The notes beneath the pieces were generated by a model. That model saw only the letters and a program-made list of their open reading frames with translations. It was not told where the DNA came from and did no database searches. From contig NZ_CP108080.1 in the NCBI RefSeq assembly GCF_036181745.1, positions 4,715,501-4,779,500 on the forward strand: a DNA stretch of 64,000 nucleotides, given 5' to 3'. Source of the DNA: Streptomyces sp. NBC_00259 (GTDB taxonomy: Bacteria > Actinomycetota > Actinomycetes > Streptomycetales > Streptomycetaceae). How positions within the stretch are numbered: the stretch's first letter is position 1; every line of letters begins with the position of its first letter. Made by a program: the position numbers and the translations under genes. Shown piece after piece: positions 19,802-23,759 of this stretch.

Positions 19802-20872
19802 TTACGCGATCGCGTCGCCCTTACGGCGCTTCATCGCGAAGACCACACCCGCACCGGCGACGACGGCGACACCGCCGGCGATCCCGATGGCCGGCAGCAC
19901 CGAGGACGAACCGGTCTCGGCCAGGTTGCCCGTGACCTCGATCGGCTTGGCCTCGCCCTGCGGCTTGACGTCGTTCGACGGCTTCTCACCGGTCGGCTCG
20001 GAGTCCTCGACGTCACCGGCGTCGCTGCCGGCCTTGATCACCTGGAACGGGTAGACGTCGCCGTTCTCGAAGCACGCGAACGTCTCGTCCTCGGCGCCGT
20101 TGTCGTAACCACCGGCGGCGAGCGCCAGGCCGTCGCCCGCGGGGGCGGCCTTGTCGATCTTCACGCGGAGGTCGATGCTGACCTTCTGGCCGGCGTCGAG
20201 GGCGAACTCGCCGAAGAAGATGCCGTTGTTGATCCCGGAGCCGGCGAAGTCGTTGACCCACTTGCCCGACGGGTCCTTGTACTCGAAGTGCGCGTACTTC
20301 TCGATGAGCCTGTCGTCGAAGTCCTCGGGGGACTTGCCGTACGTGGCGACCGTGTAGACCTGCAGGCTCTCGATGTCGTTCTTGCCGGAGTTCTCCACGT
20401 CGAACGTGAAGTTCTTCCAGCCGCTGCCCGCGACGATCTTGTTCGGGAAGCCGCCGAGGGAGACCTGGATGTCGCCCTCTTCGCAGATCGGGAACTCCTC
20501 GTCCTCGCCGTCCTCGGCGGGGTCCTCCTCGCCCGGCTTGGTGTCCTCGTCGGGCTTGGTGTCCTCGCCCGGCTTGGTCTCCTCGTCCGGCTTGGTGTCC
20601 CCGGCCGGGGTCTCGCCCTCCGGCTTGGTCTCCTCCGCCGGGGTCTCGCCCTCGGGCTTGGTCTCCTCGGCCGGGGTCTCGTCCGCCGGCGTGGTGTCCT
20701 CGCCCGGCGTGGTGTCCTCGGCAGGCACGGCCCCTGTGTCACCCGTCGAACCGGAGGTCGTGCTGGTGGTGCCGCCGGTCGTCGCGAATGCGACCGGCGC
20801 CGCCGCCAGGAAGGCGGCGGGGGCTATGACAGCGGTCGCGGCGGCGACGGCCATAGCGCGGCGAAGCTTCAT
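19802..20872 (-). CDS. LAETG-anchored cell-wall surface protein (class E sortase substrate)
   Basis: A 356-residue exported protein. The signal peptide covers about residues 1-30, with a basic start, a hydrophobic core and AFA. A Thr/Lys/Pro/Glu repeat region (about 40-115, with units such as ETKPEGETPAE) could span the wall. A globular beta-rich domain with paired cysteines follows. The C-terminus has LAETG at 317-321, a hydrophobic helix and a basic MKRRKGD tail. LAXTG is the motif recognised by Streptomyces class E sortases, as in long chaplins. No sortase gene is in the window. The ATG follows CCGAGG. The ligand or partner is unknown. Confidence 0.9.
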   Translation of the reverse strand: MKLRRAMAVAAATAVIAPAAFLAAAPVAFATTGGTTSTTSGSTGDTGAVPAEDTTPGEDTTPADETPAEETKPEGETPAEETKPEGETPAGDTKPDEETKPGEDTKPDEDTKPGEEDPAEDGEDEEFPICEEGDIQVSLGGFPNKIVAGSGWKNFTFDVENSGKNDIESLQVYTVATYGKSPEDFDDRLIEKYAHFEYKDPSGKWVNDFAGSGINNGIFFGEFALDAGQKVSIDLRVKIDKAAPAGDGLALAAGGYDNGAEDETFACFENGDVYPFQVIKAGSDAGDVEDSEPTGEKPSNDVKPQGEAKPIEVTGNLAETGSSSVLPAIGIAGGVAVVAGAGVVFAMKRRKGDAIA

Positions 20873-21316: not shown

Positions 21317-21552
21317 CTTGGGGTGACCGGGCTGCTGTCCCCTGCCGACCGGTCACGCGCGCCGGGGCGAGGTCCCACGACGTACCCGTTACCTGTGGTA
21401 CGCCACACGCCCCGGCGGAGCCACGCGTGGTTCTTTCCTGCGGGGCCCGCCCCTGGCTGACACGGACATCGGTACCAACGAAGTGGTCCAGGAGCGGTCA
21501 CGGGCCGTACGGGTGAGAGCGCGCCCGTACAGATGTATGGATCGGTCGCGTC

Positions 21553-21843
21553 TCAGATACGGCCCCGGCACAGCTCCAGCATCGTCATCGCCAACGCCGT
21601 ACCCGGCTTGCCGAGCGCGTCCCGGTAGTGGCCGAGCACCTCCATCTCCCGCGACAGGTTCACCCGGCGGCCGCCCGACGTGACCCGGGCCTCCTGGATG
21701 ACGGCCGAGACGGCCATGCGTTCCTGGATCAGACCGATGATGCGGTCGTCGAGGGCGTCGATCCGCTCACGGGCGCCGGAGATCAGATCCGCGGCCTCGT
21801 CGGTGCGGGCGCCGGTGTCGGTCGGGAGGGACATGGCGGTCAT
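21553..21843 (-). CDS. Chorismate mutase, AroQ type
   Basis: A 96-residue all-helical chorismate mutase that converts chorismate to prephenate, the branch point to phenylalanine and tyrosine. The N-terminal helix has ISGARERIDALDDRIIGLI with the conserved Arg. QERMAVSAVIQEARV contains the Lys/Arg-equivalent positions, and the C-terminal helix ends the domain. ATG at 21843 follows AAGGAG by 7 bases; a second in-frame ATG at 21834 is less well placed. No signal peptide is present, so it is the intracellular enzyme. It is preceded on the same strand by a short leader peptide gene and an intrinsic terminator, pointing to attenuation control. Confidence 0.92.
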   Translation of the reverse strand: MTAMSLPTDTGARTDEAADLISGARERIDALDDRIIGLIQERMAVSAVIQEARVTSGGRRVNLSREMEVLGHYRDALGKPGTALAMTMLELCRGRI

Positions 21844-21898
21844 CAGGGGGCTCCTTGTGTACGAGGCCCCGGACCGACCAGCCCCGGAAGACACAGAA

Positions 21899-21925
21899 CG
21901 CCCCGGGCCTTGTCGGCCCGGGGCG
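21899..21925 (-). terminator. Attenuator-type terminator before chorismate mutase
   Basis: On the minus strand CGCCCCGGGCC, loop GACAA, GGCCCGGGGCG form a perfect 11-bp stem, followed by the T-rich TTCTGTGTCTT. It lies 24 bases beyond the leader-peptide stop and 55 bases before the chorismate mutase start. GGCCCG inside the leader gene (21976-21981) can pair with CGGGCC of the 5' arm, which would make a competing antiterminator. Confidence 0.75.
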
Positions 21926-21949
21926 CCTGGGAAGTCGCTTGTCAGTAGC

Positions 21950-22021
21950 TCAAGCAGCACGACCATGGCAGCCGGCGGGCCGGGTGCCATAGGTAAAGAC
22001 GAAGGTCGGGTGCTTGCGCAT
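21950..22021 (-). CDS. Putative aromatic-rich leader peptide of the chorismate mutase gene
   Basis: A 23-residue open frame starting MRKHPTFVFTYGTR and ending HGRAA. Phe at 7 and 9 and Tyr at 11 are end products of the chorismate mutase branch. Phe9 is TTT and Tyr11 is TAT, both rare codons in this GC-rich genome, which would make a ribosome sensitive to low charged tRNA. There is no clear Shine-Dalgarno sequence; CATACT lies about 6 bases before the ATG, so the transcript may be leaderless. The frame is followed by a terminator and then chorismate mutase. This is an inference from layout; no expression is shown. Confidence 0.65.
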   Translation of the reverse strand: MRKHPTFVFTYGTRPAGCHGRAA

Positions 22022-22102
22022 GGGAGCAGTATGGCCCCCCGGTCCCCGTCGGGGCCAATGCGGGTTCGGATGGTGAGACGAAAACCGGCCCCGGGGCGCC
22101 GG

Positions 22103-22108
22103 TAGAAT
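22103..22108 (+). promoter_or_regulatory. Probable -10 element of guaA
   Basis: TAGAAT lies 46 bases before the guaA start and matches a principal-sigma -10. No good -35 is seen at the usual distance. The short divergent gap (22022-22154) also holds the leader-peptide promoter region. Confidence 0.4.
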
Positions 22109-22154
22109 CGACAAATAGAGCCCCTCCTCCCACCACCGCCGGAAGGCCGCCGTA

Positions 22155-23759
22155 GTGTCCTCAGCGTCCCCTGCTGCCGCGCCCGACATCGCCAACCCGG
22201 ACGTCGTCCTCGTTGTCGACTTCGGCGCCCAGTACGCCCAGCTCATCGCCCGCCGCGTCCGTGAGGCCCGGGTCTACAGCGAGATCGTCCCGTCCACCAT
22301 GCCGGTGGCGGAGATGCTGGCCAAGCAGCCGGCGGCGATCATCCTCTCCGGCGGCCCGTCGTCCGTGTACGAGGAGGGCGCCCCGAGTCTCGACCGGGCC
22401 ATCTTCGAGGCCGGCATCCCCGTCTTCGGCATGTGCTACGGCTTCCAGCTGATGGCGCGGACCCTCGGCGGCACCGTCGACAACTCCGGCGCCCGCGAGT
22501 ACGGCCGCACCGACCTGCACGTCTCCAAGACCGGCTCCACCCTCTTCGAGGGCACCCCGGCCGAGCAGCCGGTGTGGATGTCCCACGGCGACGCCTGCTC
22601 CGCCGCGCCCGAGGGCTTCACCGTGACCGCGTCCACGGACGTCGTACCGGTCGCCGCCTTCGAGAACGACGAGAAGAAGCTGTACGGCGTTCAGCACCAC
22701 CCCGAGGTGATGCACTCGACGTACGGCCAGCAGGTCCTGGAGCACTTCCTCTACCGGGGCGCCGGCATCGAGCCGACCTGGACGACCGGCAACGTCATCG
22801 AGGAGCAGGTCGCCGCGATCCGTGAGCAGGTCGGCGCGAAGCGCGCGATCTGCGGACTGTCCGGCGGTGTCGACTCGGCGGTCGCCGCGGCGCTCGTGCA
22901 GAAGGCCATCGGCTCCCAGCTGACCTGTGTGTACGTCGACCACGGTCTGATGCGCAAGGGCGAGACCGAGCAGGTCGAGAAGGACTTCGTCGCCGCGACC
23001 GGCGTCTCGCTGAAGGTCGTCGACGCGCAGGAGCGCTTCCTGAACGCGCTCTCCGGCGTCTCGGACCCCGAGGAGAAGCGGAAGATCATCGGCCGGGAGT
23101 TCATCCGGGTCTTCGAGCAGGCCCAGGTCGAGATCATCGCCGAGGCCGGCGCCCACGGCGACGAGCCGGTCCAGTTCCTGGTGCAGGGCACGCTCTACCC
23201 GGACGTGGTGGAGTCCGGCGGCGGCACCGGCACCGCGAACATCAAGTCGCACCACAACGTCGGCGGCCTCCCCGAGGACCTCGAGTTCGAGCTGATCGAG
23301 CCGCTGCGCAAGCTGTTCAAGGACGAGGTCCGGATGGTCGGCCAGGAGCTGGGCCTGCCCGAGGAGATCGTCCACCGCCAGCCGTTCCCGGGCCCCGGCC
23401 TCGGCATCCGCATCGTCGGCGAGGTCACCAGGGACCGCCTGGACCTGCTGCGCGAGGCCGACGCCATCGCCCGCGAGGAGCTCACCGCGGCCGGTCTCGA
23501 CCGTGAGATCTGGCAGTGCCCGGTGGTCCTGCTCGCCGATGTCCGCTCCGTGGGCGTCCAGGGCGACGGCCGCACGTACGGCCACCCGATCGTGCTCCGG
23601 CCCGTCTCCTCCGAGGACGCGATGACGGCGGACTGGACGCGCATGCCGTACGACGTGCTGTCGAAGATCTCGACCCGCATCACCAACGAGGTCGCGGACG
23701 TCAACCGCGTCGTCCTCGACGTGACGTCGAAGCCGCCGGGCACTATCGAGTGGGAGTGA
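22155..23759 (+). CDS. guaA: GMP synthase (glutamine-hydrolysing)
   Basis: A 534-residue cytoplasmic enzyme that converts XMP to GMP with glutamine and ATP. The N-terminal class I glutaminase domain (about 17-205) has the nucleophile cysteine in FGMCYGFQ and the HHPEV histidine. The ATP pyrophosphatase domain has the P-loop [13 protein letters not shown] (about 235-247). The C-terminal dimerisation domain ends KPPGTIEWE, as in the family. It acts after GuaB in the same pathway. GTG start with GGAAGG nearby. It is divergent from the chorismate mutase leader and ends at a clear terminator. Confidence 0.97.

Follow-up and report, generated by a model that had tools for sequence, protein, structure and literature searches.

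How expression of chorismate mutase, which opens the phenylalanine and tyrosine branch, might be adjusted to the supply of these amino acids is the question raised by a short reading frame that precedes a chorismate mutase gene of Streptomyces. The frame lies in the 64,000-nucleotide stretch of DNA analyzed here (the window), taken from a genome of 8.16 Mb. An earlier note on this DNA had proposed an attenuator of the trp or phe type and had suggested aligning the region from relatives, with a lack of conservation counting against the idea. The proposal was supported by the alignment, which revealed conserved aromatic codons and covarying stems: the leader codons, a pause hairpin, a terminator, and an antiterminator were conserved with compensatory changes in several actinobacterial families. 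From these sequence comparisons, we consider that chorismate mutase is very probably controlled by a ribosome-mediated transcription attenuator sensing shortage of Phe or Tyr (probability of about 0.86).

Organization of the chorismate mutase locus

The protein encoded downstream of the leader matched the Pfam family CM_2 (PF01817) with a score of 32.3 bits (cut-off, 27) and the intracellular enzyme Rv0948c of Mycobacterium tuberculosis (PDB 2qbv) with an E value of 4e-12, and its gene is preceded by AAGGAG, in agreement with the earlier description of a chorismate mutase with a good ribosome site (Table 1). No minus-strand gene that would need the terminator was apparent just upstream, guaA being divergent. 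The putative small hairpin around the leader stop codon could draw strands 2 and 3 of the putative attenuator together.

Table 1. Features of the chorismate mutase locus, in coordinates of the window
Feature	Position	Strand	Basis or remark
guaA	22155-23759	+	Divergent from the leader and chorismate mutase side
-35-like TTGGCC, separated from the -10 box by 19 nt	22053-22058	-	Read directly; preference for T/T/G near that distance only weak in 174 leaders
-10 box CATACT, 6 nt 5' of the leader start codon	22028-22033	-	Read directly; NANNNT widespread among leaders
Leader peptide ORF MRKHPTFVFTYGTRPAGCHGRAA, 23 codons, stop codon TGA	21950-22021	-	ORF read directly; leaders at 231/247 unique chorismate mutase loci
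Putative sensor codons TTC(7) GTC TTT(9) ACC TAT(11)	21989-22003	-	TTT and TAT near-fixed in leaders with the FTYG core
Putative pause hairpin P1 (1:2), beginning at the Tyr codon	21964-21991	-	3/8 counted pairs change on both sides, with pairing kept in some sequences
Strand 2, predicted antiterminator partner of strand 3	21963-21982	-	Complementarity, folding model, swap test
Putative spacer hairpin, small, GCTTG/CAAGC on either side of the leader stop codon	21937-21955	-	Complementarity read from the sequence
Strand 3, terminator 5' arm plus the preceding CCA	21914-21930	-	Complementarity, swap test
Predicted intrinsic terminator hairpin (3:4), weak U-tract	21897-21927	-	Terminator finder; 5/12 counted pairs change on both sides, with pairing kept in some sequences
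Ribosome site AAGGAG before chorismate mutase	21856-21851	-	Read directly
AroQ-type chorismate mutase, related to Rv0948c of M. tuberculosis	21553-21843	-	PF01817; PDB 2qbv

Between guaA and the leader promoter, the minus strand carries a second terminator-like inverted repeat, ACCGGCGCCCCGGGGCCGGT followed by TTTTCG (22103-22084), which could insulate this promoter from antisense transcription across guaA.

Conservation and distribution of the leader

The 23-codon frame that had been reported, with Phe, Phe, and Tyr within five residues, was found where expected, with TTC, TTT, and TAT as codons 7, 9, and 11. Such clustering of Phe and Tyr codons ahead of a gene of the Phe/Tyr pathway is what a short sensor ORF of an attenuator would be expected to contain. 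TTT and TAT had been called rare codons, and five ORFs of the window bear this out: TTT was used for 0 of 63 Phe residues and TAT for 0 of 51 Tyr residues (0/114 Phe plus Tyr codons). Among the leaders of the genus set (f1) with an FTYG core, Phe was nevertheless encoded by TTT in 173/174 and Tyr by TAT in 174/174. The aromatic codons were conserved and the remainder of the peptide was variable, with FxFTYG (FVFTYG, for example) in the genus and FFYGYG, FFYGYR, FFYGN, FFYGNR, FYGDR, and others elsewhere. The C-terminal part was in another reading frame in 10 of 177 genus leaders, the RNA 3' of the Tyr codon still being conserved.

For these comparisons, a DNA search matched 28 of 31 genomes, including the present one, and a protein profile search gave a match in 242 of 246 genomes of the genus and in 150 of 394 of the class. 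Part of the matches was taken, yielding 247 unique chorismate mutase loci after removal of duplicates. The 80 named loci were all from Streptomyces except for one (Microtetraspora glauca). The genus set comprised 181 loci, 71 of them unique named loci, and 179 had at least 300 nt of upstream sequence (L017 and L019 had too little).

A leader was identified at 231 of the 247 loci by patterns that had been tuned on peptides already identified and that favored starts with a -10 box. Fairer counts are provided by the promoter analysis with blindly picked starts (172/174; see below) and by a neutral rule, namely an ORF of 12 to 40 codons with at least three Phe or Tyr in six residues and with NANNNT 6 to 7 nt ahead of its start, in a stretch of 400 nt. 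This rule identified a leader upstream of 187/244 chorismate mutase loci versus 3/626 window segments and 0/608 flank segments of 400 nt, well in excess of the chance expectation. Within the genus set, the leader was present at 177 of the 179 loci with sufficient upstream sequence; the two exceptions (L157 and L159) were diverged second copies of chorismate mutase. In other families, it was present at 54 of 66 loci, a spread across the class that is unexpectedly wide. The 12 loci of these families that lacked it were one f20 locus (L127), L117, which is cut by a contig end, and ten f6 loci outside genus g8 (L121, L123, L128, and L140 to L146, all those of f6 outside g8 that were examined). The latter genus is probably Mycobacterium, since the enzyme fragment of L120 aligned closely with Rv0948c (E value of 6e-36). 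At the f6 loci outside g8, control may be exerted on 3-deoxy-7-phosphoheptulonate (DAHP) synthase instead, because this is the case for AroR of Corynebacterium glutamicum (see below).

Promoter and 5' end of the leader mRNA

In 229 of 231 leaders, an NANNNT box (CATACT in 163 of them) was located 5 to 7 nt ahead of the start codon, starts preceded by such a box having been favored. Picking the starts blind to the box gave NANNNT in 172 of 174 leaders and a CATACT-like hexamer at 6 to 7 nt in 164 of 174. A Shine-Dalgarno-like tetramer was present in 23 of 231 leaders. The position of the -10 box, 6 to 7 nt before the start codon, suggests that the leader mRNA is leaderless, with a 5' end at or next to 22021. 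It also argues against a transcription start downstream of 21899 on the minus strand, which the earlier note had named as evidence against attenuation.

Conserved and mutually exclusive RNA helices

The perfect stem of 11 bp that had been noticed after the leader is present, formed by CGCCCCGGGCC and GGCCCGGGGCG with GACAA as the loop. A terminator finder returned a 13-pair terminator-like site there, one of 2 such sites in a 2-kb region versus 0.3 in shuffled sequences. The stem had been credited with a T-rich tail, a generous description: the tail reads TTCTGTGTCTTCC, and the genus median is 5 T in the 14 nt that follow CGGGG of the stem. The candidate intrinsic terminator thus combines a strong, conserved stem with a weak U-tract. 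The predicted pairing of GGCCCG in the leader with CGGGCC in the terminator arm proved to extend to 7 contiguous pairs (CGGCCCG/CGGGCCG) and, with interruptions, to 16 pairs overall in the window.

In an alignment of 34 sequences, 95.9% of the cells of P1 and of the terminator were paired. The covariation score of these helices was 0.303; shuffles gave 0.153, with none of 500 attaining the observed score, and slid helices gave no more than 0.096. Eight of the 20 pairs changed on both sides, a bare count that is ordinary in comparison to shuffles (151/500). P1 started at the last aromatic codon or a few bases from it, a nearness due in part to construction, as the hairpin was searched only up to 14 nt from that codon.

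The antiterminator was examined by exchanging strand 3 between clades. Own partners paired more stably than swapped partners (-24.1 versus -18.9 kcal/mol; p of about 2e-5) among 16 representatives, comprising 13 chorismate mutase leaders and 3 DAHP synthase leaders chosen from 24 usable ones and partly non-independent (three f6g8, three f3, and two f1). This refined test was designed after an earlier, broader one, in which 24 representatives gave a p value of 0.0046. Examples of strands 2 and 3 that match each other are CGGCCCG/CGGGCCG (the window), GGACTCCGG/CCGGAGTCC (L092), and GGACCCG/CGGGTCC (L312). Exceptions were L130, L020, and L319, whose own pairing was equaled or bettered by 7 of 15 swapped partners. 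The test covered families other than f20, f16, f14, f23, and a few more, for which the hairpin finder returned no canonical terminator, and L091 was dropped for want of a motif match. Together, these comparisons point to three mutually exclusive and covarying helices, 1:2, 2:3, and 3:4, as in the enterobacterial pheL and trpL attenuators.

In f20 (L096, L101, the f20 members of L103 to L116, L126, L131, and L132), most leaders are longer, with just one Phe-Tyr pair and a P1 that is strong. The canonical GCCCCGG terminator was not returned by the hairpin finder for f20, and the mechanism may differ there from that of the other families.

A T-box or another catalogued riboswitch was rejected since no Rfam family fits: positions 21500 to 22300 gave four matches up to an E value of 5, the best (0.82) lying far below its gathering score, and 11 relatives gave no match at the gathering score.

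Folding model of the stalled ribosome

The effect of ribosome position was modeled for 173 genus leaders by folding the RNA as far as the terminator loop with a 28-nt mask placed around the A site. A ribosome at TTT was predicted to allow at least 5 antiterminator pairs in 173/173 leaders (median, 15.6), and one at TAT in 168/173 (median, 12.8). In the model, stalling on the sensor codons would therefore free strand 2, Phe codon 9 (TTT) being the best-placed stall site. With no ribosome, the predicted median was 1.6 pairs for the antiterminator versus 9.2 for P1, although 64 of the 173 leaders already formed at least 5 antiterminator pairs; L154, L156, and L133 leaned almost entirely toward the antiterminator. 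L098 formed almost no antiterminator in the stalled states, probably as the result of a mis-called terminator.

A ribosome on the stop codon left the antiterminator unblocked (at least 5 pairs) in 155 of the 173 modeled genus leaders; it did block 2:3 in L089, L090, L091, L020, and L137. Most of the genus would thus lack the arrangement of the E. coli trp operon, in which the ribosome on the stop codon blocks 2:3. That arrangement is not universal, and its predicted absence need not be a defining failure, since release of the ribosome and re-formation of 1:2 would give the same outcome. As the antiterminator would remain possible with the ribosome on the stop codon, termination under fed conditions would have to depend on this release and on P1 re-forming.

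Proposed mechanism and alternatives

In the mechanism that we propose, RNA polymerase would initiate at the leader start codon or immediately beside it, and the leaderless mRNA would be engaged by a ribosome. If Phe-tRNA (TTT, codon 9, the best placed) or Tyr-tRNA (TAT, codon 11) were short, the stalled ribosome would cover the 5' side of P1; strand 2, thereby freed, would pair with strand 3, preventing formation of the terminator and allowing transcription to enter chorismate mutase. If both tRNAs were charged, the ribosome would pass and leave, P1 would re-form, strand 3 would pair with strand 4, and transcription would be expected to end near 21890. The comparisons show the conservation, the codon choice, the covariation of the three helices, and what the mask does in the folding model, whereas the transcription start, termination itself, and the response to Phe or Tyr are deduced.

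The weak U-tract raises two other readings, both of which we regard as unlikely. In the first, the leader ribosome would set the accessibility of the ribosome site of chorismate mutase rather than termination, a translational mode of attenuation said to operate on cysteine genes of Mycobacterium smegmatis in the accessible part of PMC13236596. AAGGAG is located about 40 nt past the terminator stem, however, and was predicted to fold in a small local hairpin that involves neither the terminator nor P1; the conserved hairpin itself is terminator-like, and DAHP synthase leaders have T-rich tails. In the second, which we judge slightly less probable still, the leader ribosome would control access of Rho, and the hairpin would be merely a pause or processing site. 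The leaders of several families that were found without a canonical terminator are compatible with this, but strand 2 covaries with the 5' arm of the hairpin, which is best explained if the hairpin matters, and the pairs of the stem covary as well. Very improbable is a conserved small-protein gene followed by an unrelated terminator, with aromatic residues that serve the peptide: the core FxFTYGxRPxGCHGRAA is highly similar over most of the genus, but the C-terminal frame differs in 10/177 leaders, the peptides of other families differ outside the aromatic run, the rare codons are fixed, and the alternative helices covary.

Related leaders upstream of DAHP synthase

A covariance model built from the chorismate mutase leaders (R1) gave a single strong match in the genome of the window (E value of 8.2e-37; next, 1.6e-7) among 27 matches up to an E value of 10. 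Three of the others (L270, L271, and L274) lay just after long frames (455, 509, and 493 codons, respectively) and looked like plain terminators; an aromatic frame before the stem of L271, MFRFWEIKKG, was rejected as the end of the 509-codon frame.

In 296 genomes of the class, R1 matched many f19 genomes with E values of about 1e-13 to 1e-8. Fourteen of 20 fetched places (13 from f19 and one from f30) were aromatic leaders before DAHP synthase, beginning MQRNFWRFYGYRP..., MRTAWSFWYGDGP..., and MRTAFWFWYGDGP..., for example. Each of these 14 stretches was matched in the enzyme search, and all three of the proteins that were scanned scored above the cut-off for PRK08673 and TIGR01361. The other six places (L320 to L325) contained no leader meeting the rule.

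A search for DAHP synthase at E values up to 1e-60 matched 103 of the 296 genomes. Sixty-two loci were examined (30 loci, 20 more stretches, and the 14 places found by R1, minus two duplicates), and a leader preceded the gene in 36, from nine families. The 26 loci without a leader include L356 and L362, which were too short to tell. T-rich tails, with 4 to 10 T in 14 nt, were found in 31 of the 36 leaders. In the six genomes in which both upstream regions were covered (G339, G277, G350, G398, G407, and G268), the chorismate mutase leader was present in all six and the DAHP synthase leader in none.

All three aromatic amino acids depend on DAHP synthase, whereas only Phe and Tyr depend on chorismate mutase. 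Trp was present in the first 14 residues of 29 of the 36 DAHP synthase leaders (21 of 23 genera; in L328, after the run), whereas Trp occurred no later than the motif end in 6/231 chorismate mutase leaders and within the aromatic run in 3/231, a contrast that is perhaps exaggerated because Trp counted as aromatic in the DAHP synthase rule and not in the chorismate mutase rules. The Trp-free rule nonetheless sufficed for the 177/179 genus loci mentioned above. Codon content thus follows the branch of the pathway that the downstream gene serves.

Common descent of the two sets of leaders is plausible, since the model built on one set finds the other; their likeness could also have arisen by convergence. 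Somewhat speculatively, and with odds that we place below even, the leaders may form an old, relocatable, leaderless module of the Actinomycetia, set before chorismate mutase (Phe/Tyr) or DAHP synthase (Trp added), with sensor codons rewritten for each branch and the wobble codons TTT and TAT fixed as a tuning device. A scan of 296 genomes of the phylum with R1 (E values up to 1e-7, stricter filters) returned no credible element outside the class; the matches in G669 and G739 (outside the class) and in G259 (within it) had no rule-meeting leader and looked like plain terminators.

Comparison with known attenuators

The match between leader codons and pathway product is shared with pheL-pheA and trpL of Enterobacteria. 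A leader of the pheL type codes for Phe only and has a ribosome site, whereas the leader described here combines Phe with Tyr, is probably leaderless, and precedes a monofunctional chorismate mutase. The pheA gene with the pheL leader encodes CM-PDT, which has chorismate mutase activity, according to the section consulted of PMC11802643. The nearest described case is AroR of C. glutamicum, likewise a leader of an actinobacterium and of the aromatic pathway, in which Phe and Tyr codons are clustered (Phe-Tyr-Phe) and which, in the excerpts available, is reported to respond to Phe limitation and not to Tyr availability (PMC11802643, PMC4046766). As far as a comparison by description goes, AroR differs in controlling aroF (DAHP synthase) rather than chorismate mutase and, in these excerpts, in having been described for C. 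glutamicum only.

In the same genus, eight leaders were reported for Streptomyces lividans TK24 (Ala, Ile/Val/Leu, Thr, two for Trp, two for Leu, and Met), none of them for Phe or Tyr; seven of the eight were called leaderless and some are followed by terminators, and the main text contains none of the words chorismate, phenylalanine, and tyrosine (PMC8079986). Three leaders, none for Phe, are listed for Corynebacterium diphtheriae in the part of PMC5784534 available to us. The accessible text of PMC4128351 contains nothing on chorismate mutase, and that of PMC1173090, on tyrA attenuators, nothing on the leader described here. A literature search that covered mostly papers outside subscription yielded no report of an actinobacterial chorismate mutase leader among the titles and abstract openings listed.

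Streptomyces and several other actinobacterial families feed aromatic precursors into many natural products. Their Phe/Tyr branch gains a concrete candidate control point, the survey of Seliverstov (2005) having reported, in its available portion, that phenylalanine and tyrosine operons of Actinobacteria were not preceded by conserved RNA structures (PMC1262725). The chorismate mutase and DAHP synthase versions constitute a natural experiment on the way in which sensor codons track the branch under control. The fixed codons TTT and TAT, which are absent from the five sampled ORFs of the window, offer a direct test of ideas on codon choice in attenuators. A covariance model now exists for an element that had no Rfam family match in the window and 11 relatives.

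Elsewhere in the window, a predicted protein (19802-20872, minus strand), for which a Pfam match was absent, contains tandem repeats of the ETPAEETKPEG type. With an LAETG motif and then a hydrophobic tail at its C terminus, it resembles surface proteins anchored by sortase.
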